A stretch of DNA of 64,000 nt from Gammaproteobacteria bacterium (GTDB taxonomy: Bacteria > Pseudomonadota > Gammaproteobacteria > Thiotrichales > Thiotrichaceae). Location of the stretch: contig JAHJJD010000124.1 of the NCBI GenBank assembly GCA_018822845.1, positions 1 through 64,000 of the forward strand, written 5' to 3'. Made by a program: the position numbers and the translations under genes. Positions within the stretch are counted from its first letter, which is position 1, and the number at the start of each line of letters is the position of its first letter. The notes under the pieces are model-generated. The model saw only the letters and a list, made by a program, of their open reading frames with translations, had not been told where the DNA came from and made no database searches. Shown here piece by piece: positions 3,887-56,200 of this stretch.

Positions 3887-4291
3887 TTAGAAACTCAGGA
3901 TTACTTCTTGCTCTGCCATCATTGCAGCCATTTCCTCGCGGTTGGCCAGAATGATGGAAGGCTTTTCAGCGTAATCGTCGTCAGCATCTTCGTAAGTCAG
4001 TTCCATCAGGTCATCGACCGTCAGGCCACGTTCAGCCAAAGACTCGCTAGAGACATACAGCTTGGTAATGTCATAGTCACCCAGCGCACGGTAAGTCGGC
4101 GAGAAGTTCTTCATGCCGATACCTTTGCTGTTCTGACCCTTGGTGATCTGGTAAACACCATCATCAATGAAGGCCAGACTAACATTTTGCTCGAATGCAG
4201 CGGAAATCAGTACGACTTCCAGTGATTCCAGCGCGTAAATAGTGCCGTAAGGAGCCTTGCGGTTTACGAACAGAAAATTCTTGGTAGACAT
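3887..4291 (-). CDS. dsrF: DsrF, sulfurtransferase subunit
   Basis: A 134-residue DsrF/TusC-family protein. It contains no cysteine, in keeping with a structural rather than catalytic role in the DsrEFH hexamer. It sits 11 bp after dsrE and 15 bp before dsrH, so the three subunits are almost certainly co-translated. The start ATG is preceded by an AGGAGAACTGCG-type site. Confidence 0.93.
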   Translation of the reverse strand: MSTKNFLFVNRKAPYGTIYALESLEVVLISAAFEQNVSLAFIDDGVYQITKGQNSKGIGMKNFSPTYRALGDYDITKLYVSSESLAERGLTVDDLMELTYEDADDDYAEKPSIILANREEMAAMMAEQEVILSF

Positions 4292-4302
4292 CGCAGTTCT
4301 CC

Positions 4303-4695
4303 TTAATCGCCAAACACGACCAGACGGTCAGACTGGATACCACCTTCCACCAACTGCCCCAGACCGGAAATACGGAAACCGGGAGCAATATTGTTGGCGT
4401 CCAGACCCTGACGCTTGGCTTCGTCCGCATCCATGATGCCGCGACGTTGTGCCGCTGCGATACAGATGACCAGATCCAGACCATGCTTTTCAGCCAGCTC
4501 TGTCCAGGCTTTCTGGATCAGGCGGTCATCAGCAGGCGGAACGGTAAGACGAGTGCCGTTGTTTACGCCGTCGTGGTAGAAGAAGACACGGAAAATCTCG
4601 TGTCCCTTCTCCAGCGCGGCACGGGTGAACTGAAGCGCAGTATCAGCAGACTGGTGCTGATACGGGCCTTCGTTAACCAGAATTGTGTATTTCAT
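4303..4695 (-). CDS. dsrE: DsrE, catalytic subunit of the DsrEFH sulfurtransferase
   Basis: A 130-residue DsrE/TusD-family protein. Cys78, in DLVICIAAAQRRG, is at the position of the active persulfide-carrying cysteine in this family. It receives sulfur, probably from the TusA/rhodanese relay, and passes it to DsrC. It lies directly downstream of dsrB and upstream of dsrF. Confidence 0.95.
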   Translation of the reverse strand: MKYTILVNEGPYQHQSADTALQFTRAALEKGHEIFRVFFYHDGVNNGTRLTVPPADDRLIQKAWTELAEKHGLDLVICIAAAQRRGIMDADEAKRQGLDANNIAPGFRISGLGQLVEGGIQSDRLVVFGD

Positions 4696-5886: not shown

Positions 5887-7179
5887 TTACGCAGCTTTTT
5901 CTTCACGCTTGCGGTTGAACCAGGCTTCAGCAGCCTCATCCCAACCATCAGTACGCACGTAAGAAACGTTGCGTGGCTGCTTGATCATGTTCGGATCCGG
6001 ATCAATGTCGATGCCTTCCAAGAAGTTCACCAGACCGATACGCTCGATCATTTCGCCGCAACGCTCGTGTTCCAGACCGTTTTCAGCCCAGAAGTCGATA
6101 ATGGTTTGCGCCAGTTCAACGATACGCTCGTAATCTTCTTCGGTATCCAGCTTCATGAACGGGACTGTGACGATACCCATCAGGTCGCCGATTTTCAGGG
6201 TACGCTTACCACCGATCAGGATAGTTACGCCCTTGTCGTCGCCCACTTGCAGTGCTTTCGGCATGACATTCAGGCAGTGCATGCAACGCACACAGTTGCT
6301 GTTGTCGACGGTGATGGTGTCATCATCGTTCAGCTTGATAGCTTGCGTTGGGCAACGGCTGATAACGTTGTCAAACATGTATTGGCGGCCTGCGGAACGA
6401 TCACCTTCTTTGCCAATTTCCTTGGCCTTCTTCATGATCATTTCCTTGACTGCTTCCTGGTTGACTTTCATGTCATCACGCCAGGTGCCGATTACGGCGA
6501 AGTCAGCACGCTCGATGGCGTTCTGGCAGTCGTTCGGGCAGCCGGAAACCTTGAATTTGAACTTGTAAGGCAGCGCCGGGCGATGCACGTCATCAGTGAA
6601 GTTATTCATCAGACGGCGATGGATGGCGTGTTCGTTGCAGTTGGACATTTCACAACGGGCCGCACCCACGCAAGACATACCAGTACGCACACAAGGACCA
6701 GCACCACCCAGATCCCAGCCATATTCATTGATTTCATCAAAGAAATGCTGGAAGTTGACGCTGTTCGCACCGATGAACATGATGTTACCGGTTTGGCCGT
6801 GGAAAGTTTGCAGGCCGGAACCCCATTTTTCCCAGCTATCAGCCAGTTGGCGCAGCATGTCAGTGGTGTAGTAGTTGCCAGCAGGTGGCTGTACACGCAG
6901 GGTGTGGAACTCCTTGGATTCAGGGAACATGTGACCGACTTCAGAGAAGCGCGGAATAATGCCGCCGCCGTAACCGAAGACAGAAATAGTACCACCCTTC
7001 CAGTAGCCCATTTTGGTTTCGTAAGAATGCTCCAACTGCCCCATCAGGCCGTTGATCACATTGCGGATGCGCTCATCTGGATGATCATCACGCAATTTCT
7101 TGAAACCGCTGATGAAGCTAGGCCATGGGCCTTCTTCCAGCACGTCAAGCATCGGCGTTGGATAATGTTTCGTTGCCAT
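5887..7179 (-). CDS. dsrA: DsrA, reverse dissimilatory sulfite reductase alpha subunit
   Basis: A 430-residue DsrA. The siroheme-FeS ligands appear as SCVGAARCEMSNC near residue 180 and SGCPNDC near 222, and a ferredoxin domain (CVRCMHCLNVMP) lies near 305. It is the first gene of the operon, with an AGGAGG site in front of its ATG. The 312-bp region upstream is shared with the divergent oxygenase gene and probably holds the main dsr promoter. Confidence 0.97.
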   Translation of the reverse strand: MATKHYPTPMLDVLEEGPWPSFISGFKKLRDDHPDERIRNVINGLMGQLEHSYETKMGYWKGGTISVFGYGGGIIPRFSEVGHMFPESKEFHTLRVQPPAGNYYTTDMLRQLADSWEKWGSGLQTFHGQTGNIMFIGANSVNFQHFFDEINEYGWDLGGAGPCVRTGMSCVGAARCEMSNCNEHAIHRRLMNNFTDDVHRPALPYKFKFKVSGCPNDCQNAIERADFAVIGTWRDDMKVNQEAVKEMIMKKAKEIGKEGDRSAGRQYMFDNVISRCPTQAIKLNDDDTITVDNSNCVRCMHCLNVMPKALQVGDDKGVTILIGGKRTLKIGDLMGIVTVPFMKLDTEEDYERIVELAQTIIDFWAENGLEHERCGEMIERIGLVNFLEGIDIDPDPNMIKQPRNVSYVRTDGWDEAAEAWFNRKREEKAA

Positions 7180-7491
7180 ACCTGCCTCCTCAGTAAACGA
7201 TCTATGGCGTTTCCTCCTGACCAGCTTCTCTAAATGATCTGTCAGGCTGAAAAAAATAAAACAATTGCTGAACCTGGTTTGCTCAAGTCGCGAGTCCGGT
7301 AAGTGTATGCGTCGTCCTTGTCGCGGAGAATCTCACCCATGGGGTGCTACCGGAATTTGAGGCTATCCCTTAGGGGATAGATCAACAAACATAATCGAAA
7401 CAAGCTCTCTTCAAGCGGTACAATAGCATATTCTGATTTTTTAATATTTCAAATAGGCAAGCAATCTTCAGGGATTAGACAGGCACTCATC
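7180..7491. promoter_or_regulatory. Divergent dsrA / oxygenase intergenic region
   Basis: A 312-bp gene-free region between two divergent transcription units. It holds the dsrA Shine-Dalgarno, two dyads (CACCCATGGGGTG at about 7334-7346 and the better one at 7364-7379) and AT-rich stretches before the oxygenase gene, including TACAAT at 7419-7424 as a weak -10 candidate. No coding sequence is evident. It most likely holds the promoters of both units. Confidence 0.55.
7364..7379. promoter_or_regulatory. 16-bp dyad, NarL-like 7-2-7 operator candidate
   Basis: TATCCCTTAGGGGATA is a near-perfect dyad 185-200 bp upstream of dsrA. It resembles the 7-2-7 arrangement of NarL/FixJ-type binding sites. 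A copy with 13 of 16 matches lies at 39370-39385, upstream of the TrpD-like gene. The regulator is not known. Confidence 0.4.
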
Positions 7492-8400
7492 ATGAGCAAT
7501 TCACCTTTTAATATCAAACACCTGGATACTTACCAGCAATGGCGTAAAAAAAAGCTGTCTGCCTACCCGTTAGCCATTGACTCCCTACTGACCCCCATTG
7601 CCAACCCTGAAGCACCTACTAACGATGAACTTGGGCGCATTCTGGAAACATGCAGGCAACACAATCTTGCGCTTTACCGTTTTGAACAGGGAAATCTGCG
7701 CAGCAAGCAGTTGGTACACCGCATGGGTGCTGCCATTGGCCTGCAACGGCTCGACAATAACCTGTGCGCTGACGAAGACAGCCTGACCTCCCTGCACGTC
7801 ACCAGCCATGCGGGACAGCACGATTACATTCCATACACTGACAAGAAGCTGAGCTGGCATACTGACGGATACTACAACCTGCCAGAAGAACAGATTCACG
7901 GCATGGTATTGCACTGCGCCCAGCACGCGACGGAAGGCGGAGAAAGCTGGCTGATGGATCACGAGATCGCCTACATCCTGTTGCGCGACGCCAACCCGGA
8001 TTACATCATGGCATTGATGCACCCGAATGCGTTCACCATCCCGGCCAACATACTGAATGGCTCAGTAGTACGCCCGGAACAATCCGGCCCGGTTTTCAGC
8101 GTGACCGCAGCAGGCAACCTGCACATGCGCTATTCCGCCCGCCAGCACAATGTAATCTGGCGTGACGACCCGCTAACCCACGCAGCCGCGCAATTTCTAT
8201 TGAATGTGTGGGAACAGGACTCACCTTACAAAATAAGGTACACCTTGCAGGCAGGCGAAGGTTTAGTGTGCAATAACGTCCTGCACTGCCGCACTGCATT
8301 TGTGGACAGTAACGAGCCGGAACACAAACGCCTATTGTACCGGGGGCGTTATTATGACCGGATAGCCAAAACCAACCTTGTTCAGGAGACACCATGTTAA
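7492..8400 (+). CDS. TauD/TfdA-family Fe(II)/2-oxoglutarate dioxygenase
   Basis: A 302-residue protein with the TauD/TfdA double-stranded beta-helix signature. The HxD iron motif is in SWHTDGYY near residue 122, and a distal His-Arg segment is in NNVLHCRTAF near 267. Such enzymes use Fe(II), O2 and 2-oxoglutarate to hydroxylate small molecules, but the substrate cannot be read from the sequence. It heads a plus-strand cassette: the next ATG overlaps its last codons at 8394. Its position opposite dsrA and beside Cas6-like and DsrC-like genes suggests a role linked to sulfur metabolism or RNA modification rather than taurine use; this is inference. Confidence 0.82.
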   Translation: MSNSPFNIKHLDTYQQWRKKKLSAYPLAIDSLLTPIANPEAPTNDELGRILETCRQHNLALYRFEQGNLRSKQLVHRMGAAIGLQRLDNNLCADEDSLTSLHVTSHAGQHDYIPYTDKKLSWHTDGYYNLPEEQIHGMVLHCAQHATEGGESWLMDHEIAYILLRDANPDYIMALMHPNAFTIPANILNGSVVRPEQSGPVFSVTAAGNLHMRYSARQHNVIWRDDPLTHAAAQFLLNVWEQDSPYKIRYTLQAGEGLVCNNVLHCRTAFVDSNEPEHKRLLYRGRYYDRIAKTNLVQETPC

Positions 8401-8594: not shown

Positions 8595-9284
8595 ATGTTC
8601 TGGCAGGAAGACGAAGATAAAACCCTCCCCTGGCAAGCGCCCAGCGACATCCTTGACCTGAGTTTTGCCATTCAGTGCAAGCAGTTGCCACTGGATCATG
8701 CCTGGGATCTATCGCAAGCCATTCACGCTGCATTACCCTGGTTTCCACAAGAAGATGTGGCAGGCGTCCACACCATTCATGTTGCTGAAAGCGGCAACGG
8801 CTGGCTGCGCCCGGATGACACTGAAAACCAGCTGCTACTGCCCTCGCACCGTACCCGCATGGCGTTACGCATCCCCAGGCACCGACTGGCTGACGCACTG
8901 GCGCTACAAGGCAAAACACTGGATATTGACGGCCACCTCCTGACTGTTGGTGCCGCCAAGGAAAAGCCACTGGTCAACGCATCAGTCATTTTTGCCCGCT
9001 ACGTCCTGTCGGATATTGCCGAAGAAGAACCTGATTTCCTGCAACGTATGGCCAGGGAAGTCCACGAGATTAGCGGTTTCAAGGTCAAAAAAATGATGTG
9101 CGGCAAAAGCAATATCATCAAGACCCCTGATGGCTTGCTGCATACCCGTCACCTGATGATTGCCGACCTGGACAATGACCCTTCCATCCGCGTGCAACAA
9201 TACGGCCTGGGTGGCGGACGCAAACTGGGCTGTGGACTGTTCATACCCCACAAAAGCATCAAAACATTGAAACCCACCGAGTAG
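8595..9284 (+). CDS. cas6: Stand-alone Cas6-family (Cmx6-like) RNA-processing protein
   Basis: A 229-residue protein resembling the Cas6/Cmx6 family. The N-terminal region (LDLSFAIQCKQLPLDHAW near residue 20) matches the first strand-helix of the ferredoxin-like RAMP fold, and the C-terminus carries a glycine-rich loop (GLGGGRKLGCGLFIPHK, about 204-220), the RAMP hallmark. Cas6 proteins bind and cut CRISPR repeat RNA. No CRISPR array, other cas gene or repeat-spacer pattern exists in the window, so a different RNA substrate or a trans-acting role is possible. It is four bases from the upstream gene. Its stop codon lies inside the hairpin at 9281-9307. Confidence 0.75.
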   Translation: MFWQEDEDKTLPWQAPSDILDLSFAIQCKQLPLDHAWDLSQAIHAALPWFPQEDVAGVHTIHVAESGNGWLRPDDTENQLLLPSHRTRMALRIPRHRLADALALQGKTLDIDGHLLTVGAAKEKPLVNASVIFARYVLSDIAEEEPDFLQRMAREVHEISGFKVKKMMCGKSNIIKTPDGLLHTRHLMIADLDNDPSIRVQQYGLGGGRKLGCGLFIPHKSIKTLKPTE

Positions 9285-10136: not shown

Positions 10137-11036
10137 TCAGTGCCCGACTGAACGAACCTTGCGGACTTTTACCCACACATCATTGTTTGCCTCATGGATA
10201 ACCTCCAGCACAGCCACCGTATCACCCTGCTGGAACCCGCCCATTGCCCGTTGGCCGTGGGGCTGCTCATATAGCCCGTGGATTTTCTGGGTTCGGTAAT
10301 TTTTTCCAACAATCGGCAAACCGGAGTCTGAGGCAACATGCAGTTTCTGCCCATGCCAACCATAGTCACGCAATTCCCCAATATAAACCCAGGTAACCAC
10401 GCCTACAGGCGTGGGCGCACCACCAAATGGCCTCGCCAAATCAGTATCAACCCTGGATAAGGGCGTAACACCAACCGTTTCAGCCACTGCATTCCCTGAC
10501 AGGTCAACGTCAGTCCTGTTGGCTTCGGCAGTACGCTGCGCCTCCAGCGCCCGCTGAAGCACAACCGGCGGGGCTGACCCGACTGGTTTTTCTGCTTTTC
10601 TTGCAGGGGCAGATGAACTCAGGGCTTTACTGGAAACAGTTGCTTCGACAGGCGCACCTACTGGTTCCTGCGCAGCAATCACAATCGGGGCAGCCGGTGC
10701 CGCCACATCGGCAGATGGCGGCACGCCCTTACGCATGGAAAAACCCTCCCCTGCCTGCATCGTACCCTGCGCCAATTGTGCGTCCATTACTGGCTGGAGG
10801 GAGACAGGCTTGGGAACCGGAATGGTCCGGGTAACAGCAGCAGGAGCAACACTAACTAATGAAACTGAGTCAACAGCCAGCTCTGGTCGGGATTTAACAT
10901 CAGCCAGACGACCATAGAAATAGCCCAACCCAGCCAGCGTAGCAGCCTGAAAGCCAGCCACAGGAACCCAGATCATCGCCTGCTTCGCAAAAGGCGTAGA
11001 CCACCAAGATACCCTTTTGACAACCAGTTGCGCCAT
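10137..11036 (-). CDS. Hypothetical single-pass membrane protein with SH3-like C-terminus
   Basis: A 299-residue protein not assigned to a family. After a basic N-terminus there is one hydrophobic segment (about residues 23-41, WVPVAGFQAATLAGLGYFYG). A long Ala/Pro/Val-rich linker covers about 55-210. A compact beta-rich C-terminal region (about 218-297, with VYIGELRDYGWHGQ and DTVAVLEVIHEANNDVWVKVRKV) looks like an SH3-type or FimV/GW-like module. The likely topology is a cytoplasmic N-terminus and a periplasmic wall- or protein-binding domain. It ends at the bidirectional terminator. Confidence 0.75.
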   Translation of the reverse strand: MAQLVVKRVSWWSTPFAKQAMIWVPVAGFQAATLAGLGYFYGRLADVKSRPELAVDSVSLVSVAPAAVTRTIPVPKPVSLQPVMDAQLAQGTMQAGEGFSMRKGVPPSADVAAPAAPIVIAAQEPVGAPVEATVSSKALSSSAPARKAEKPVGSAPPVVLQRALEAQRTAEANRTDVDLSGNAVAETVGVTPLSRVDTDLARPFGGAPTPVGVVTWVYIGELRDYGWHGQKLHVASDSGLPIVGKNYRTQKIHGLYEQPHGQRAMGGFQQGDTVAVLEVIHEANNDVWVKVRKVRSVGH

Positions 11037-15245: not shown

Positions 15246-17792
15246 CTATTGACCAGAGGCCAAACGGAACCCGAGGTTGTTGTACCAACTACCCGGCGAG
15301 TTGTAGTAGCGGTGAGCAGAACGCACGTACCTAGGCGTGCTGTTCCACGAGCCACCGCGCAGCACGTACCCAAACGTGCTGTTCCACAAGCCACCGCTCA
15401 ACACGCGGTAGGCGCTATCTCCAGACTCCCAAGAACTGCCATCAACAGGCGCACCTTTGTAATCATCATAGCTCCAATCCTGCACCCACTCCCAAGCATT
15501 CCCGCTGGTATCATAAAGGCCATAACCATTTGCGGAAAAGCTGCCGACAGAAGCAGTCTGCTTATTGTCCCATTGGCTACCGCATCCATCGCAATTTGCA
15601 TTATTCTTCCCAAGGCTTTTGCCCCAAGGAAAAGCTTTATCCTTGCCTCCCCGTGCTGCGTATTCCCATTCTGCTTCGCTGGGCAGCCGGTAGGTTTTGC
15701 CTGTTTTTTTGTTCAGCCACGGAATGTATTTCTGGGTGATGTCATTCCAACTGACATTGATGACCGGACGCTTGCCCCGCCCCCATCCTTCATCCTCAGC
15801 ATGAGGACAAGCATTGGCCTTTTCACAGGCATCCCATTCATCAAAAGTCACTTCGTATTTCGCCATCTGGAAGGCCATGAGAGTGACTTTATGCGAAGGT
15901 TTTTCATCATTATCACAGCCATCTTTCAGAACATCATCACGACCTGATTTACAACCCATGGTAAATGAACCGGCGGGGATGGAGGCCATTTCGGGTTCAA
16001 TCGGATTTACGTCTACGTTTTCGATAGAAGTTCTTTCGATAGAAGTCCTATTGCCACTGTTTTGTTTCCACACGAATCCGCCAATACCGAGCATCAACAC
16101 CACTCCCACGATGGCTACCGATTTCCCAGCAAAGCGTTTTGCTGGGGTTGGTAATGGCGCAGAAATCGCGTTTATCGCGGGCGGAGGAGAAACTCTCTCT
16201 TCTGTAGGAGCCAGCCCTGCTGGCGATTCCCCACCAGAAGAAGAATCGCCAGCAGGGCTGGCTCCTACAAGGGATTGGGGCTCTTTTGGAGGTAGGAGTT
16301 CTTCTTGGTGTTTGCGTTCCTCTAGCTGCCGCTTCAGTTCGGCTTGGCGCTTGACCTCTTCTGCCTGAAGTTTCAGATCAGCCTGCTGTTTGGCTTCTTC
16401 TTCCTTCTGGCGCTTCAACTCTTGGCGTTTGGATTCTTCTTCCTGCCGTTTCAGTTCGACCTGTTGTTTGGCTTTTTCCTCCTCCGCCTGACGTTTCAAC
16501 TCGGTTTGACGCTTGGCTTCTTCTTGTCGCTTCAGTTCGGCTTGACGGGCAGCTTCTTCCTCTGCTTGCCGTTGCAACTCGGCCTGACGTTTGGCTTCAT
16601 CTTCCTGCTGCTGCCGTTTCAGTTCAGCTTGGCGCTTGGCTTCTTCGCGTTGCTGCCGTTGTTTTTCCAATAACGCCAGCTCTTCGGCGGTTGGTTCGCG
16701 CAGCAGGCTGCCGCTATCGATGCTGGTGTAGAGGACGGGTGTTGCCCATTCCAACTGATTGGCTTCGGCGTAGATCATCTTGCGGGCTTCGGCGACGGCG
16801 GCGTCTATCGAGTAGCCATCGACCAGCGCGGCGTAGAATTCGTGTGAGAAGGTGATGGCGGCTTCGTCGGTGATTTCGAACTGCATGGCGATGACCGCCG
16901 GGATGCCCTTTTGCAGCAGGCTTTGCCCCACGCCCGCGAACGGGTCGGTGACGGATGTCCTGCCGCCGCTACAAGAGTTCAGCAGCACCAACTGGAGGGT
17001 GGTTTCGTCATACAGGATTGTGCCAAGGTATTGCCCGCTGACCAGATGGCCTTTTTTGTTGCGGTCTTCCAGCACCAGTACGCCGTCACTGTTGGTACGG
17101 TCAAAGCCTCCGTGCCCAATGTAGTGGAACACATGGTATTCGCCACGCCGCAACTGCCGCTGCAAAGCCGCCAGCGAAGGTTCCACCCGCGTCAGGATCA
17201 ACCTGCCTTCTTTCTGCAAACTCAGGGTAGCCGTGTTGATGCGCTCCCATTCGCGCTCCACATCCAGTTGCTGGTAATTGGACGGGCTGGAAATCATCAC
17301 CAGCACTTGCAACACGCCCTGCGCCTGCCGCATCTCCGGCAATGTCGCCAGATCAAGCTTGCGGATAATGGGGGTGTTGACCGACAGGCCGATGTAGTTG
17401 TTGTTATCGGCGTCAAACAGCAATTCCCACGGGATGTCGATCAGCTTCGGCGCTCCCGACAAACGCAAGCGGATGCGCAACCCGCAGCCTTCACGCCGCG
17501 CAATCGCCAGACTGGAGCGGAAACGTTCCGCTATTGCGCCACCAAAAAGTGCCTCATACAACGCCCCACCCAGTTTTTGGATGGACGGGACATCAATCCG
17601 CTCAATATGCAAGCTACGCACACTGCCCCGGTTCTGCCCAATCTTGAGGATGAAGTTTTCCAGTTCCACTGCCGAGAAAGGCAGGGTGAACGTGCGGCTG
17701 GCCTGACCTGCGGGGGAGTCGATCACATGCACCTGATAGCTGTCGCCTGCCTCGTTCAGCAACAAATCAAAATTGAGGTAGGATTTACTCAT
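15246..17792 (-). CDS. CHAT protease, coiled coil, TM and FGE-type C-terminal domain
   Basis: An 848-residue multidomain protein. The CHAT caspase-like domain covers about residues 90-365, with the catalytic dyad visible as His227 (YIGHGG) and Cys274 (NSCSGG). A long Glu/Lys/Gln/Arg coiled coil follows (about 366-500), then an in-frame palindromic element (about 508-530), a TM segment (about 555-572) and a formylglycine-generating-enzyme-like domain (about 600-848, RLPSEAEWEYAARGG, YGLYDTSGNAWEW). The FGE tail is rich in Asn, Tyr and Ser and looks like a DGR variable region, with a 13-residue duplication. The likely role is a membrane-tethered sensor-protease of a conflict or programmed-death system; this is inference. 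The FGE domain is paralogous to that of the TIR-NTPase protein. Confidence 0.88.
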   Translation of the reverse strand: MSKSYLNFDLLLNEAGDSYQVHVIDSPAGQASRTFTLPFSAVELENFILKIGQNRGSVRSLHIERIDVPSIQKLGGALYEALFGGAIAERFRSSLAIARREGCGLRIRLRLSGAPKLIDIPWELLFDADNNNYIGLSVNTPIIRKLDLATLPEMRQAQGVLQVLVMISSPSNYQQLDVEREWERINTATLSLQKEGRLILTRVEPSLAALQRQLRRGEYHVFHYIGHGGFDRTNSDGVLVLEDRNKKGHLVSGQYLGTILYDETTLQLVLLNSCSGGRTSVTDPFAGVGQSLLQKGIPAVIAMQFEITDEAAITFSHEFYAALVDGYSIDAAVAEARKMIYAEANQLEWATPVLYTSIDSGSLLREPTAEELALLEKQRQQREEAKRQAELKRQQQEDEAKRQAELQRQAEEEAARQAELKRQEEAKRQTELKRQAEEEKAKQQVELKRQEEESKRQELKRQKEEEAKQQADLKLQAEEVKRQAELKRQLEERKHQEELLPPKEPQSLVGASPAGDSSSGGESPAGLAPTEERVSPPPAINAISAPLPTPAKRFAGKSVAIVGVVLMLGIGGFVWKQNSGNRTSIERTSIENVDVNPIEPEMASIPAGSFTMGCKSGRDDVLKDGCDNDEKPSHKVTLMAFQMAKYEVTFDEWDACEKANACPHAEDEGWGRGKRPVINVSWNDITQKYIPWLNKKTGKTYRLPSEAEWEYAARGGKDKAFPWGKSLGKNNANCDGCGSQWDNKQTASVGSFSANGYGLYDTSGNAWEWVQDWSYDDYKGAPVDGSSWESGDSAYRVLSGGLWNSTFGYVLRGGSWNSTPRYVRSAHRYYNSPGSWYNNLGFRLASGQ
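15325..15402 (-). repeat. Tandem 39-bp duplication in the CHAT-FGE tail
   Basis: Two adjacent 39-bp units, 15325-15363 and 15364-15402, differ at a few bases and encode 13 residues each (GGLWNSTFGYVL- and GGSWNSTPRYVR-like). The AACAGCACG codons at the variable-type positions are identical in both units, so duplication probably happened after that sequence arose. FGE proteins normally carry this GGSWN segment once. Confidence 0.85.
16203..16269. repeat. In-frame REP-like palindrome inside the CHAT-FGE gene
   Basis: Perfect 27-bp inverted arms (16203-16229 and 16243-16269, beginning TGTAGGAGCCAGCCC) around a 13-base loop. It is translated as a Gly/Ser/Pro-rich linker between the coiled coil and the TM segment. 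A related half copy lies near 42999-43021. The GTAGGAGC head is typical of REP elements known from pseudomonads. Confidence 0.85.
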
Positions 17793-17880
17793 CGGGACAA
17801 CTCCAGCTTTCGCCCTGCACTTTTTATAGTTTATTCGCAGCCTGCTGGTAAAAAAATCTTATTAATCAAGTTTTGTGCAG

Positions 17881-42986: not shown

Positions 42987-43202
42987 TACAGCAAGCGATC
43001 GCCAGCATGGCTGGCTCCTACGGCAAAAACAGGCGGGACGTTCGACCATGCTACCAGCCCCGCCTGCCACTTCCTTGCCATCTATTTGGCTTTCCCATCC
43101 TTGCGAAGCCTGGAAAGAAGGTCATGGACACCCCAACGCACGCTCCGGCTGACCGTGGGCAGACGGACTCTGGCGAATGGAGCCTGATACTCCAAGGGTG
43201 GA

Positions 43203-43330
43203 CTGGATGCACGCAAAACACGCAAACCGACGTTGTTGTTACGGTTGTCTGTGTTGTTCCTGTTGCGGGCGGACGGGCGCGAGAAAACACCATTGTTGTT
43301 CCACGAACCGCCCCGCGACACACGACGCGC
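43203..43330 (-). repeat. DGR template repeat (TR)
   Basis: A 128-bp copy of the 3' end of the TIR-FGE gene. Read on the minus strand it encodes GGSWNNNGVFSRPSARNRNN-type sequence with many AAC codons, as template repeats do. Compared with the variable repeat at 43562-43689, 16 bases differ, and all 16 are A on the minus strand of this copy. The flanks diverge immediately (43331 and 43202), which sets the limits. Confidence 0.93.
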
Positions 43331-43364
43331 ACAGCCTTCTTCCCGCTTCTGAACATAGACCGGA

Positions 43365-43430
43365 AAGAGGGCGTATGCAATACGCCCCTACAAAGAATGC
43401 CCTGTAGGGGCGTATTGCATACGCCCTCTT
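43365..43430. repeat. 28-bp inverted-repeat hairpin between VR and TR
   Basis: Perfect 28-bp arms (43365-43392 and 43403-43430; core GGGCGTATGCAATACGCCCC) around a 10-base loop. The GTAGGGGCG motif also begins the hairpin at 9281-9307, so this is probably a dispersed palindromic element rather than a DGR-specific structure. Confidence 0.9.
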
Positions 43431-43551
43431 CCTTCTTCCCCATCCGAAAAATCGACCGCGCTTCGCGCGGTAAGCCCGCCCCACCACCACCATACCCGGC
43501 AAACACCGCAGCATACCAAACGCCGTACCCCCGACGATAAAGGGTAAAGGG

Positions 43552-46530
43552 TTAATGAGTCCTGGATGCACGCAAAACACGCAAACCGACGTAGAGGTGA
43601 CGGTAGACTGAGTCGAACCCGGAGCGGGCGGACGGGCGCGAGAAAACACCATCGTCGTACCACGAACCGCCCCGCGACACACGACGCGCGGAGGCATCAG
43701 GCTGCGCACAACGGCCTTCACTGCCATCAAATTCGGTTTGCCATTCCGAACACGTCCACTCCCAGACATTGCCTGCGGTATCGTACAAGCCGAATGGATT
43801 GGGCTTAAAGCTGCCGACTGGGGCAACAAATTTATTATCCCACTGGCTGCCACAATTCAAGCAGTTAGCGTTGTTTTTCCCAGCATCTTCCCCCCACCAA
43901 TACGGCGTGGTGGTTTTGGCACGGGCGGCATATTCCCATTCCACTTCAGTCGGCAAACGGTATTCATACCTTCCTTTGTATTTACCATTGAGCCATTGCA
44001 CATAGCCTTGGGCATCATCCCACGACACATTCACCACAGCCCGTTGCCCACGTCCGTTTTCATTGGGCGCATTGCCCGGATAAGCTGGCGGGTTTTCTGT
44101 TCCCTGCTGCGACCACACATAATAATCGTACTGCTCGAAGGTTACTTCGTATTTACCCAAGGCAAATGCCTCCGTAATGGTAGCCATGACGGGAGGGACA
44201 CCCATGTTGATTGTATTTTTAGGAACGCCTTGTTGTTCTAGCCAAGGTGCAATGTTCGCGTCGCTATCCCCAACCTGAAATTCGCCTTGCGGCAATGGAA
44301 TATCCACCATCTCCGGCAAGGGTTCAGGCAACAAACCCCAGCTCGCCAACCGAAACTTCTGTTGGGTCAGCATGTAGTTGGGCGGTAGCTCGTTGTTCAG
44401 CGTCCACAGGTAGGATTCGCCGACGAAAGCCAGCAATAGTGCCAGCACACCGCCTTGCGCCCAGCCCATGCGGCGGCTACGGCGCAGGAAGCGGTCATCC
44501 GGGCTACCACGTTCCGGGCGCAGCTTACGGTAGGCGCGTAGCTCACCCCAGCTTGCCAGACCGAACCAGCGTTTCAGCCCTGTGCGGGCATTCCAGGCTT
44601 GTGCCTGCCGTGCCAACTGGTCGCGGTAGAAACCGCGCTCTCGGTTTTTGTCGATGTAGTCGTACAGCGTGCGCCAGTAGCCGACCAGCTTGCCGGTGGC
44701 TTCATCCTTGCCTTTGGCGCGGATCAGGGTTTCGTGGATGAGGTCAACAGCAAGAAACGTGTCATCTGAAGAAGAAACCCCTCCCAACCTCCCCTTATCA
44801 GGGGAGGAGCCAGACGTGCCACCATCACCATTCCGGAGTCGCGGCAAGGCTCCCTTCCCTGACAAGGGAAGGGCTGGGGATGGGTTTCTTTCTGCGGCAT
44901 CCTCCCCAACGACCACCAGTAAACGCAAGCTGCCAGCCGCTTTACGATTACCACCATCCGGAGCCATCCGCCCACTCAGGTAGTCGATAATCTGTTGCCC
45001 ACGCTGCGGGTCGGCCTTTTTACCGCCTGCTGCCAGCCGTGCCTCGCCCAGCGGCAAGCGGCGGCGGGTGTGGCGGCCTTCATCATTGACACGGGTCAGC
45101 GCCAGCAGCAATTCCAGCGCATCCTCCCTGCCTTTGGGCAAGTCGCTTTCCAGCCGTTTGAGCAGCCGGTCGGCTTCGGTTTCCAGCATTCCGGCGATAC
45201 CGCCCTGCTGCGCGTACAGCTCACCGCTCAGGTGGTTGTTTTGGCGTTGCTCCCACAGGACTTTCAGGGCGTTTTCCACCAGTGGCAATACGCCCGGTTC
45301 CTCACGGGCATCACGTAAAATCGCGGCGGTGATTTCGCTGACATCCAGCCCCGCCAGTCGCGCCGGTTGCTCAATGACTTCGCGCAAGCCTTGCTGCGAA
45401 ATGGTTTTCAGCAGATAACGCTCACAGGCACGCTTGCTGTACAGCTCCGACAGGCACGGCAACTGCTCGAAGCCTTCCAGAAAGTCGATGCGCACGGTGC
45501 TGATGATAAACAGCGGGCAGTCCTTGTCCTGCAAGGCGCTGTACAACTGCATGTCGAAACGCAGTTTTTCTGCCTTGTCGGAGAAGGTGAACAGCTCCTC
45601 AAACTGGTCGACCACCAGCAGGAATGCTTTGCCATCCTCACGGAAATCGCGCAGACGCATGGCCAGCGCCTTGTCATTTTCCAGCAGGCTGGCATAACGT
45701 TTGGCGGTATCGCGCAAGGCCGGGTCAGTCACCAGCGAATGCTCCAGCACTTCCGCCAGCTTTTGCAGCGGCTGTTCGCCCGGCATCATCGGGCCGAGAA
45801 TATGCCAGTGTTCGTAGCCGGTACGCGCCCACAGTGCGCCTTGCTTGATCAGCGGCAGCATCCCGGCATTCACCAGCGAAGATTTGCCCGCCCCGCTGTT
45901 GCCCTCGATTTGCAGCCAGCGGCAATAGTGGCCGTCTACCCGCACATGCTCCGGGTTTACCTCGCGCAGCGTGCCCAGATATTGCAAAGCATCCAGCGTT
46001 TCCTTGCGCCGCCCGAAAAACAGGTTGGCATGTTCCGGCTGGAAGGCACTCAACCCCAGATAGGGACAACCGTCAAAGGTATTGCTGTCATCCAGCAATT
46101 CGGACTTGGCGCGGATCGCCTGAATCAGCGTTTCCGGCAGCGCTTCTCCCATCTGCCAACGCTGAATCTGGAACAGGCTCAAAAACGGCGGCAAGCTGCG
46201 CAAATCACCTTCCGCTAACAGGATGGGGAAAATCGGCAGGCGCTGCGCATCATCCTGCGGGGAAAGGTGGCGACTGAGCGCATATTGCACTTCCGCCCCC
46301 ACCCAGCGCCGCACCCCTTCGCGCCCATACAGCAACACGAAGGCGGAACAACCCTGCAAAGCCGTTTGCAAGCGTTCCATCCAGTTATCGCCAGCGCGGA
46401 TCGAATCCTCATCGCGGAATACCGTGAACCCGGCCTTTTCCAGTTCGGTGCGCAGTAAAAGCGCCGCTTCCAGATTGGTGCGGCTGTAGCTGAGGAAGAT
46501 ATGCGGCGTCGAAGGGGTTTGCTCTGCCAT
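43552..46530 (-). CDS. TIR - STAND-like NTPase - TM - FGE protein, DGR target
   Basis: A 992-residue protein. Order: TIR domain (about 8-140, HIFLSYSRTNLEAALLLRTEL, FRDEDSIRAGDNW); STAND-like NTPase (about 155-560) with Walker A GNSGAGKSS at 210-218 and Walker B FLLVVDQFEELFTF near 310; an in-frame palindromic insert (about 547-586); one TM (about 690-706); and an FGE-type C-type-lectin domain (about 735-992). Residues about 948-990 are the DGR variable repeat. TIR domains commonly degrade NAD+ or signal in immunity, so this looks like a ligand-sensing conflict protein with a hypervariable sensor; that is inference. I chose the ATG at 46530; the frame extends to 46608. Confidence 0.92.
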   Translation of the reverse strand: MAEQTPSTPHIFLSYSRTNLEAALLLRTELEKAGFTVFRDEDSIRAGDNWMERLQTALQGCSAFVLLYGREGVRRWVGAEVQYALSRHLSPQDDAQRLPIFPILLAEGDLRSLPPFLSLFQIQRWQMGEALPETLIQAIRAKSELLDDSNTFDGCPYLGLSAFQPEHANLFFGRRKETLDALQYLGTLREVNPEHVRVDGHYCRWLQIEGNSGAGKSSLVNAGMLPLIKQGALWARTGYEHWHILGPMMPGEQPLQKLAEVLEHSLVTDPALRDTAKRYASLLENDKALAMRLRDFREDGKAFLLVVDQFEELFTFSDKAEKLRFDMQLYSALQDKDCPLFIISTVRIDFLEGFEQLPCLSELYSKRACERYLLKTISQQGLREVIEQPARLAGLDVSEITAAILRDAREEPGVLPLVENALKVLWEQRQNNHLSGELYAQQGGIAGMLETEADRLLKRLESDLPKGREDALELLLALTRVNDEGRHTRRRLPLGEARLAAGGKKADPQRGQQIIDYLSGRMAPDGGNRKAAGSLRLLVVVGEDAAERNPSPALPLSGKGALPRLRNGDGGTSGSSPDKGRLGGVSSSDDTFLAVDLIHETLIRAKGKDEATGKLVGYWRTLYDYIDKNRERGFYRDQLARQAQAWNARTGLKRWFGLASWGELRAYRKLRPERGSPDDRFLRRSRRMGWAQGGVLALLLAFVGESYLWTLNNELPPNYMLTQQKFRLASWGLLPEPLPEMVDIPLPQGEFQVGDSDANIAPWLEQQGVPKNTINMGVPPVMATITEAFALGKYEVTFEQYDYYVWSQQGTENPPAYPGNAPNENGRGQRAVVNVSWDDAQGYVQWLNGKYKGRYEYRLPTEVEWEYAARAKTTTPYWWGEDAGKNNANCLNCGSQWDNKFVAPVGSFKPNPFGLYDTAGNVWEWTCSEWQTEFDGSEGRCAQPDASARRVSRGGSWYDDGVFSRPSARSGFDSVYRHLYVGLRVLRASRTH
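43562..43689 (-). repeat. DGR variable repeat (VR)
   Basis: The last 128 bp of homology at the 3' end of the TIR-FGE gene; the stop codon follows 10 bp later. It encodes GGSWYDDGVFSRPSARSGFD-type sequence where the template encodes Asn codons. Changes are Asn to Tyr, Asp, Ser, Phe, His and Leu at surface-type positions of the C-type-lectin fold. Confidence 0.93.
44773..44891. repeat. In-frame palindromic element in the TIR-FGE gene
   Basis: Ends AGAAACCCCTCCC and GGGATGGGTTTCTT are inverted copies, with inner CCTTCCCTGACAAGGGAAGG-type stems. It adds about 40 Pro/Gly/Ser-rich residues between the NTPase and the following helical region. It is of the same kind as the element at 54725-54825. 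Confidence 0.8.
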
Positions 46531-46599: not shown

Positions 46600-46702
46600 A
46601 TCCCCCAACGCCGAACAACGAATGATGGCACGTCCGGCTCCTCCCCTGACAAGGGGGCGAAGCGCCGCGTTGAAGCGGCTGGGCGGCTGGGAGGGGTTTC
46701 TT
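46600..46702. repeat. Palindromic element upstream of the first RND operon
   Basis: A degenerate copy: CCCATCCCCCAACGCC at the left, CTCCCCTGACAAGGGGG in the middle and GGGAGGGGTTTCTTTATA at the right. It belongs to the same GAAACCCCTCC family as the copies inside the TIR-FGE and RND genes. It ends just before the operator region. Confidence 0.6.
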
Positions 46703-53250: not shown

Positions 53251-56200
53251 AAGGCTTCAACCTGTCGGAATGGGCGCTGCGGCACCGTAATTTTGTCCTT
53301 TACCTGATGGTGCTGACGCTGGCACTGGGCGTGTTCGGTTACAACAAGCTCGGGCAGTCGGAAGACCCGCCCTTCACCTTCAAGGTAATGCTGGTGCAGG
53401 CTTACTGGCCGGGCGCAACCGCACAGGAAATGGAGTCACAGGTCACCAACCGTATTGAGAAGACCATGATCGAAACTGATTACGTCGATGTTGTGCGCAG
53501 TTTTTCCCGCCCCGGTGAAGCCAATATTTTCGTAATCGCCAAGGACAACGCCCCCTCCAGTGCCATGGACGACATGTTTTATGACATCCGCAAGCGCACC
53601 GAGAACATGGAGCGCAACCTGCCCGAAGGCGTGATGGGGCCGTATTACAACGATGAATTCGGTGAAACTTATGGCAACATCTTCGCCCTGACTGGCGACG
53701 GTTTCAGCTATGCCCAGTTGCGCGATGCAGCAGATAACATCCGCAAGGAACTGCTGCGCGTGCCCGACGTGGCCAAAATCCTGCTGATCGGCGAGCAGGA
53801 CGAACGTGTTTACATCCAGCTTTCCAACAGCAAACTGGCCAATCTCGGCTTCAGCGTGCAGCAACTGGTGGATGTACTACGGGCGCAAAACGCCATCGCC
53901 GCAGTAGGTGCATACAACACGGATTCCGACCGCATTTACGTGCGCCCGGAAGGCGTGTTCAGCGACCTGGAAGACATCCGTAACCTGCCGGTCAACATCG
54001 GCGACCGCACCATACGCCTGCGCGAAGTGGCGGAAGTGAAACGTGGTTACGCTGATCCAGCGCATTCCACTTTCCGTTACCAAGGAATGGATGCGCTGGG
54101 CATTGGCGTTTCCATGCGCAAGGGTGGCGACATCATCGCGTTGGGCAAGGCGCTGGATGAGGCGCTGGTGCGGATCGGCAACCAGCTTCCGATCGGCATG
54201 GAACTGCACCGGGTCAATGACCAGCCTGCCGCCGTCAAACGTTCGGTGGGTGAATTCCTGCAAGTAGTATTTGAAGCGGTGGTAATCGTGCTGGCAGTCA
54301 GCTTTCTCAGCCTGGGGGTACGCGCCGGAACCGTGGTGGCGCTATCCATCCCGCTGGTGCTGGCAGCAACCTTTTTCACCATGCACCTGTTCGGCATCGG
54401 CCTGCACAAGATTTCGCTGGGGTCGCTGGTGCTGGCGCTGGGGCTACTGGTGGATGATGCCATCATCGCCATCGAAATGATGGTGGTGAAAATGGAAGAA
54501 GGCTGGGATCGGGTGAAAGCCGCCAGTTTCGCCTACACCACTACCGCCTTTCCGATGTTGACCGGGACGCTGGTGACGGCTGCCGGGTTCCTGCCGATTG
54601 CCACGGCGCAATCATCGGTAGGGGAATATACCCGCTCGATTTTTGAGGTCGTGACGATTGCACTGGTGATTTCGTGGTTTGCTGCGGTGATCGTGATTCC
54701 CTATCTGGGTTACAAGCTGCTGAAAAGAAACCCCTCCCCAACCCTCCCTTTGTCAGGGGAGGGAGCAAGAGACGAAGCACCTTCTTCTTCCTCCCCTGAC
54801 AAGGGGAGGTTAGGAGGGGTTTCTTCCGCTTTCTACCGCTGGTTCCGAGGCCTAATAAAAGCCTGTGTAACTTACCCCCTCACCGTGATCCTGTTGACGA
54901 TTGCAACTTTTGCCGGATCGCTGTTCCTGTTCCAGTTCGTGCAGCAGCAATTCTTCCCGGATGCCACCCGGCTAGAGCTGATCGTCGACCTGAAACTGCC
55001 GGAAGGCTCTTCCCTGCAAGCCACCCAGCGCGAAACGGCACGGCTGGAAGATTTTCTCAAGACACAGGATCAGCATATCGACAATTTCGTGGCGTATAGC
55101 GGTAATGGTTCGCCGCGCTTTTACCTGCCGCTGGATCAGCAACTGCCTGCCGCCAGTTTTGCGCAATTCGTAATTACCACCAAAAGCATTCCTGACCGTG
55201 AAGCACTGCGCAGCAAGCTGGTCGACGTGCTCGACAATAACCCCGATTTCAGTCTGGCGCGCGGGCGTGTAATCCGGCTGGAAAACGGCCCGCCAGTGGG
55301 CCACCCGGTGCAGTTCCGGGTTTCCGGCGATGATTTCTGGAAACTGCGCGAACTGGCCGAACAGGTGGCAAGCGTGATGCGCGCTAACCCGCATCTGGTC
55401 AATGTACATCTGGACTGGAATGAACGCAGCAAAGCCATCCGCCTCAAGCTGGATACGGCCAAGGCGATCAGTCTGGGCGTGACACAATCCGCCCTGTCGC
55501 AACTGCTGCAAAGCACACTGGATGGCGCGCCGATTGGCGAATTCCGCGAACAGGATCAAACCATCCCCATCCTGCTGCGTGGCACCGAAAGCGAGCGCGA
55601 CAAGCTTTCCCGCCTGGCAGGGCTGAATGTGCCAACCGCGACCGGCAAAACCGTTCCACTCTCACAACTGGCCAAGATCGAATACGTGCAGGAAGAAGGC
55701 ATCATCTGGCACCGTAACCGCACCCCGACCATGACGGTGCGTGGTGACATTTACAGCAAAATTCAGGCCCCAACCGTTACTGCACAAGTGGAAGCACAAC
55801 TGGGCGACATCAAAGCCAATCTGCCACTGGGTTACCGGCTGGAAACCGGTGGCGCGGTGGAGGAAAGTGCCAAGGGCAACGAATCCATCGGTGCCGGTTT
55901 CCCGCTATTCATTGTGGTGGTGCTGACCTTGCTGATGATCCAGTTACAAAGTTTCCAGCGGGTGATCATGGTGGTGCTGACTGCGCCATTCGGCATGATC
56001 GGCGTGGCAGCGTTCCTGCTGCTGTTTGACAAACCGTTTGGCTTCGTGGCGATGCTGGGAACGATTGCGCTTTCCGGCATGATCATGCGCAACTCGGTGA
56101 TTCTGGTGGATCAGATCGAGCGCAACATTGCCGACGGGCAGGTTCCGCGCGAAGCTGTCATCGAAGCTGCCGTGCGTCGTTTCCGCCCCATCATGCTGAC

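Follow-up and report, generated by a model that had tools for sequence, protein, structure and literature searches.

A diversity-generating retroelement of a Thiothrix bacterium that has probably lost its reverse transcriptase and kept its template RNA and its TIR-STAND receptor gene

In a stretch of 64,000 nucleotides of contig JAHJJD010000124.1 (hereafter the window), we identified a diversity-generating retroelement (DGR) cassette that, at a probability of roughly 0.8, recently became devoid of its reverse transcriptase (RT). RT and Avd would have been lost in cis, the template RNA and the receptor gene being left intact, and the receptor would now be either frozen or served in trans. The host genome (G000) comprises 4.0 Mb in 130 contigs and is 99.3% complete. 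Its closest named relatives belong to the filamentous genus Thiothrix, and therefore a filamentous habit is likely, as a previous sequence-only reading of this DNA had supposed. The features of the locus are the following.

43552..46530, minus strand: target gene, 992 aa, TIR-nSTAND1-FGE receptor-like protein (ORF and Pfam)
46207..46500, minus strand: TIR domain (TIR_2), residues 11-108 (PF13676, E 2.4e-17)
44584..46065, minus strand: nSTAND1 NTPase domain, residues 156-649 (PF20703, E 1.1e-71)
43570..44316, minus strand: FGE domain (FGE-sulfatase, C-type-lectin-like), residues 739-987 (PF03781, E 3e-43)
43562..43689, minus strand: variable repeat (VR), codons 948-990 of the target, in frame
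43455..43471, minus strand: terminator-like hairpin 3' of the target; one like it stands before avd in L135 and L057
43367..43428, no strand assigned: MITE-like palindrome where avd-rt would be
43331..43358, minus strand: apparent scar of the last RT codons, directly before TR (short match)
43203..43330, minus strand: template repeat (TR)
43024..43175, minus strand: conserved structured template-RNA element (model R1), 152 nt, 27 nt after TR, ending in a GC hairpin and a T-run

The TR/VR pair and its target

The TR/VR pair of the window was made by a DGR. Direct comparison showed TR and VR to be ungapped copies of 128 bp each, both on the minus strand, with TR 231 bp downstream of VR. They differed at 16 positions, all 16 being A in the coding (minus) strand of TR, that is, T on the plus strand, and the non-A positions were the same throughout (102/102). 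With 26 A per 128 nucleotides in the coding-strand TR, the probability of 16/16 changes falling on A under random placement is ~8e-12. On the coding strand, the A residues of TR were replaced in VR by T (nine), G (four) or C (three), and the changes lay at codon positions 1 (12 cases) and 2 (four cases), never at position 3; in all, they alter 13 codons. The coordinates and the adenine specificity proposed from sequence inspection thereby proved exact. No non-A difference was found in any of 12 TR/VR pairs, namely that of the window and 11 more from Thiothrix and the Lamellibrachia symbiont. At AAC codons, the spectrum of bases was not distinctive when set against that of the Bordetella phage system BPP-1 (PMC12875486).

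The VR had been read as the end of an FGE domain in a TIR-NTPase protein, and Pfam bears this out, with TIR_2, nSTAND1 and FGE-sulfatase matches and VR occupying codons 948-990 of 992. VR thus lies in a C-type-lectin-like domain at the C-terminus of the target. The protein has the layout of STAND antiviral receptors, with a TIR_2 effector, an nSTAND1 NTPase and a C-terminal FGE domain, and carries a Walker A motif (GNSGAGKS at 210), a Walker B-like motif (LLVVDQFEE at 304) and the TIR W-x3-E motif (76-80). An AlphaFold model of its last 303 residues (pLDDT 80) matched PvdO, formylglycine-generating enzymes and TvpA in the PDB, and the predicted anatomy fits a DGR target built on an FGE-type C-type-lectin fold. 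Codons 948-990 encode no cysteine, a count made within VR with regard to the active-site cysteine pair of FGE. PADLOC returned weak TIR matches only. Taken from its sequence, the target is likely an immune receptor with a putative FGE sensor. An ortholog is present in T. caldifontis DSM 21228. Within the nSTAND1 part, ~40 in-frame codons (44743-44892, minus strand) resemble a translated palindromic repeat, copies of which occur at 54789-54826, at 46622-46656 and elsewhere in the genome on other contigs. This insertion-like part is absent from the ortholog in G002.

Relatives carrying the cassette

A complete relative was found in the Lamellibrachia barhami endosymbiont (L135), whose orthologous target shares 61% identity with that of the window over its whole length. 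There, VR (8675-8795) is followed by Avd, RT and TR (10347-10467), with 12 A-only differences between the repeats. A GC hairpin follows the target, then comes avd, and the RT ends in ...STVFRREEG immediately before TR. The region 3' of TR is 84% identical to that of the window over 151 nt. A sister species of Thiothrix (G002:C14) has the same target, VR and TR, and is likewise without RT, and in a further Thiothrix (G011) the TR is left beside a gutted target.

Between the window and G002:C14, identity reached 96.1% in TR and 95.1% in the 183 nt after it (297/311 for TR and element together), against 77.5% for the part of the target CDS that precedes VR, 62% at four-fold sites, 60% in the VR-TR gap and 58% beyond the element. 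Thus, the conserved non-coding unit coincides with TR and its 3' element.

A covarying RNA element tied to one RT class

The structured RNA found 3' of TR in DGRs is represented here by the covarying element R1. Five sequences (window, G002, G011, L135 and Marithrix) gave a consensus structure of 45 pairs, 15 of them compensatory, a number reached by 0/500 shuffles. With ten sequences, in an alignment fitted to the model, 28/45 pairs covaried, and refolding the ten sequences yielded 32 pairs, 23 of which showed a compensatory change. It is covariation that carries the structure, because the single-sequence fold of the element was no more stable than shuffles (z 0.04). Rfam had no match over the TR/element stretch; a sub-threshold match to RT-7 seen with a longer stretch (18.8 bits, gathering 116.8) was not reproduced and was dropped.

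The R1 covariance model was run across 369 gammaproteobacterial genomes. It matched four genomes at five new places in all, and also a fragment on contig C70 of the host. All five adjoin an RT and/or Avd of the same class. At four of the five, a TR with A-only differences to its VR ends 12-28 nt upstream; at the fifth (L174), where the contig breaks off within the RT, a TR/VR pair was not found. Neither R1 nor the ten-sequence model R2 matched the TR 3' regions of other Thiothrix DGR classes. Plasmid-borne DGRs of Microcystis and Prosthecochloris also gave weak R2 matches (20-21 bits) immediately 3' of their RT (L176, 4713-4852; L179, 4633-4797), and on such sequence matches the element may be widespread in Avd-type DGRs. 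Element fragments that lack an entire TR lie at G000:C70:31373-31412 and G006:C1:3030755-3030861, and look like remains of lost cassettes. Exact matches to the core of the element were absent from viral contigs.

The spacer that follows TR in BPP-1 is a folded RNA to which bRT-Avd is recruited and which primes cDNA (PMC12875486). By analogy, the element of the window would serve as that spacer does, recruiting RT-Avd and priming cDNA synthesis.

RT and Avd are missing from the locus

No RT was found on the contig of the window, nor any remnant of one past the apparent C-terminal scar, and a search for an Avd or HRDC accessory in cis gave no Avd match at the locus. Searches of the genome were made at the level of family, protein, DNA and RNA model. 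The cognate RT class, defined by the template-RNA 3' element and exemplified by L135, was found neither in the host genome, a draft of 130 contigs in which an RT on an unassembled element is possible, nor in 15 other Thiothrix species. The locus works as the product of a DGR would but does not qualify as a complete one, since it has neither RT nor Avd in cis and the search for a cognate RT in trans found none.

What stands after the target is, in order, the hairpin, the MITE-like palindrome, VYVQKREEG in one frame, and TR. The palindrome has 65 half-sites in the host genome and matches in 14/16 Thiothrix genomes; miRNA matches at 43363-43435 were discarded as this palindrome read as a hairpin. 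VYVQKREEG resembles STVFRREEG, the end of the L135 RT, over ~8 codons only. The simplest reading of these sequences is that avd-rt was deleted, the final RT codons possibly remaining as a scar. A similar state was described in Thiohalocapsa, where the RT genes of DGR 4 and 5 are replaced by MITE-like arrays (PMC10907252). At L057 (G002:C5, ~7046-7297, minus strand), an RT-less target paralog, an avd gene fragment lies directly after VR, which supports an ancestral order target-avd-rt. We had considered that RT loss predated the split from G002, an idea that was dropped: the left gap edges differ between the window and G002, so that one shared loss and two separate ones are indistinguishable.

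RT has been lost at five of the ten element-bearing loci (window, G002:C14, G011, L171 and L172); it is kept at L135, L143, L173 and L175 and partly visible at L174. In two other gammaproteobacteria, TR, element and target are kept, the RT having an internal deletion from residue 133 to 333 (L171) or the loss extending from residue 72 of Avd almost to the end of the RT (L172). Plasmid relatives of the RT are at most 50% identical and phage ones at most 42% among the matches listed; thus, a mobile element that could have supplied a close cognate RT was not found.

Retrohoming was recent on the scale of species divergence

The window TR carries GGTGTT where the TRs of G002 and G011 have ACGGTG, and the same is true of the VRs, with GGTGTT in the window and ACGGTG in G002. 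Each species' VR thus bears the non-A changes of its own TR, which points to retrohoming after the two lineages separated; alternatively, a gene conversion restricted to this stretch would explain it. The 0/102 non-A differences cap TR/VR divergence at 2.9% (95%). Compared with ~0.53 substitutions per four-fold site separating the window from G002, this makes the last transfer a recent one. This comparison of VRs was made across species. On the sequence evidence, the TR/VR pattern proves that retrohoming took place at the locus in the past, recently relative to species divergence. The mutagenic retrohoming put forward in the sequence-only reading therefore stands as past action; its ongoing action here is unproven, with RT and Avd absent in cis and the cognate RT class not found. 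VR persistence by itself is no proof of activity, because VRs persist in G010 and G003, genomes in which no TR was found.

Other DGR loci of the host genome

The host genome holds at least five TRs (window, C39, C3/C20, C16 and C22). DGR RTs do exist elsewhere in it: those of the C39 and C3/C20 DGRs are intact, come with an HRDC protein and are of a class other than the L135 type. The absence of any RT from the genome, which would have spoken against a DGR, was thus not what we found.

Remote VRs lie on C9, C29 and C76, and a degenerate one in the window itself (15292-15361). Several remote VRs of the C39 TR carry one or a few non-A differences, and the one at 15.3 kb carries 13. The latter sits in an 870-codon open frame with an FGE end (15249-17858, minus strand); its 70 bp show 8 A-only differences from the C39 TR, the 13 non-A differences being counted across the full 125 bp. 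The RNA element, the RT scar and this degenerate VR had no place in the sequence-only reading.

A second RT-less pair of the host genome (L119, G000:C22) consists of TR 4194-4319 and VR 7563-7688 with 17 A-only differences, and its TR 3' region is 91% identical to the corresponding region in other Thiothrix species whose Avd-type DGRs are complete (L110, L113). Internal RT deletions that remove part or all of the catalytic core, TR and VRs being kept, were seen at L007 (G000:C16, 6961-9683; Avd intact), L121 (G000:C76, from 9855), L115 (G002:C31, 5506-6219) and L112 (G004, 6228-7105). From these sequences, RT loss looks recurrent in Thiothrix.

Discussion

From BPP-1 we infer the following mechanism. 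The intact form would be target-avd-rt-TR-RNA element, TR and element probably being one transcript. The element would recruit RT-Avd and prime cDNA synthesis, the RT would misread adenines, and the cDNA would then replace VR, altering residues of the ligand-binding FGE domain of the TIR-STAND receptor. For the host Thiothrix, we infer that avd-rt was deleted and gave way to the MITE-like palindrome and the apparent RT C-terminal scar, TR, element, VR and receptor staying intact. The receptor, whose FGE part would be the sensor, would now be frozen at its current specificity, or re-diversified only with a cognate RT supplied in trans by RT-carrying variants in the population or by gene transfer.

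Partial tandem gene copies occur in general, and one might see in TR and VR a chance duplication followed by ordinary divergence, with no DGR. We consider this refuted: random placement would put 16/16 changes on A at ~8e-12, the same A-only pattern without a non-A difference recurs in 11 other pairs, and relatives link the same RNA element to RT-Avd, L135 as a complete DGR. A different possibility is that the locus is active now, a resident intact RT (C39 or C3) using the window TR RNA. The genome does have two intact DGR RTs, and in Thiohalocapsa PB-PSB1 trans action was inferred where TR and VR match at non-A sites, DGR 2 appearing to serve DGR 4 and 5 (PMC10907252); the window pair has zero non-A differences. 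Yet the window 3' element is without similarity to the C39 and C3 elements, R1 misses both, and the L135-class RT is just 33-34% identical to those of C39 and C3 and partners Avd, not an HRDC protein. We hold such resident service to be improbable.

Within the preferred reading, that of a cassette recently deprived of RT, the odds are about even that the locus is a frozen relic, with a static VR and with TR and element as undecayed leftovers. The cognate RT was not found in 16 Thiothrix genomes, VRs persist without any TR in G010 and G003, decayed element pieces occur in G006 and on C70, and RT loss is frequent, all of which favor a relic. Against it, TR and element are 95-96% conserved between two RT-less loci whose neutral sites are near 60%; therefore, constraint until very recently, or a supply of RT, is needed. 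Five intact copies of the pattern would, besides, require separate recent losses. More tentatively, and as a minority view, TR and its 3' element may form a selected stand-alone template-RNA gene that persists without RT and is usable by a trans RT-Avd from a mobile element or RT-bearing kin, the diversification of the Thiothrix receptor being toggled by RT loss and regain.

Dore et al. (PMC10907252) described systems of this kind, in which DGRs of multicellular bacteria diversify the C-terminal CLec/FGE domain of STAND receptors and in which trans targets and degenerate loci devoid of RT also occur. The DGRs of Thiohalocapsa PB-PSB1 (Dore et al. 2024) diversify STAND and ternary conflict proteins, and the closest to ours are the RT-less DGR 4/5 and the STAND targets of DGR 3/6. 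Both genomes have several DGRs, remote VRs, C-terminal CLec/FGE targets with a STAND NTPase and sometimes TIR, and MITE-like repeats in place of RT at some loci. Unlike those of PB-PSB1, the RT-less locus of the window retains its own TR and a conserved RNA element, its RT class not being found in the genome. We found no mention of Thiothrix together with DGRs in the portions of PMC10907252 consulted or in the other literature searched. To this picture our analysis contributes a TIR-nSTAND1-FGE family, complete in one lineage but lacking RT in Thiothrix, a template-RNA element that covaries and is linked to a single RT class, and recurrent RT loss.

Among other systems, L135 has in common with the window the orthologous TIR-nSTAND1-FGE target, an A-only pair and the 84% identical element, and differs in that Avd and RT separate its VR from its TR in cis, where the window has neither. 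BPP-1 shares adenine mutagenesis between TR and VR and a structured RNA 3' of TR, the role of the latter being assigned by analogy (PMC12875486), whereas its target is a phage tail protein, the system is complete in cis, and TR comes before rt instead of after it as in the L135 class. TvpA of Treponema denticola (2y3c) resembles the target in sequence and fold, as a DGR-varied FGE-type C-type lectin, but its solved chain contains neither a TIR nor a STAND domain. Antiviral STAND proteins (Avs, bacterial NACHT) likewise have an N-terminal effector, a central STAND NTPase and a sensor at the C-terminus; the sensor position is taken by FGE in our target, and the likeness is known here from architecture.

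In their DGR-diversified STAND receptors, multicellular bacteria may possess a form of adaptive immunity. To these candidates the locus adds Thiothrix and a TIR-STAND target family whose complete relative resides in a tubeworm symbiont. The RNA element provides a handle for assigning orphan TRs to an RT class and for finding RT-less cassettes that RT-based DGR surveys miss. With RT lost recurrently and template and receptor kept, it becomes testable whether useful receptors are being frozen or RTs are shared in trans.
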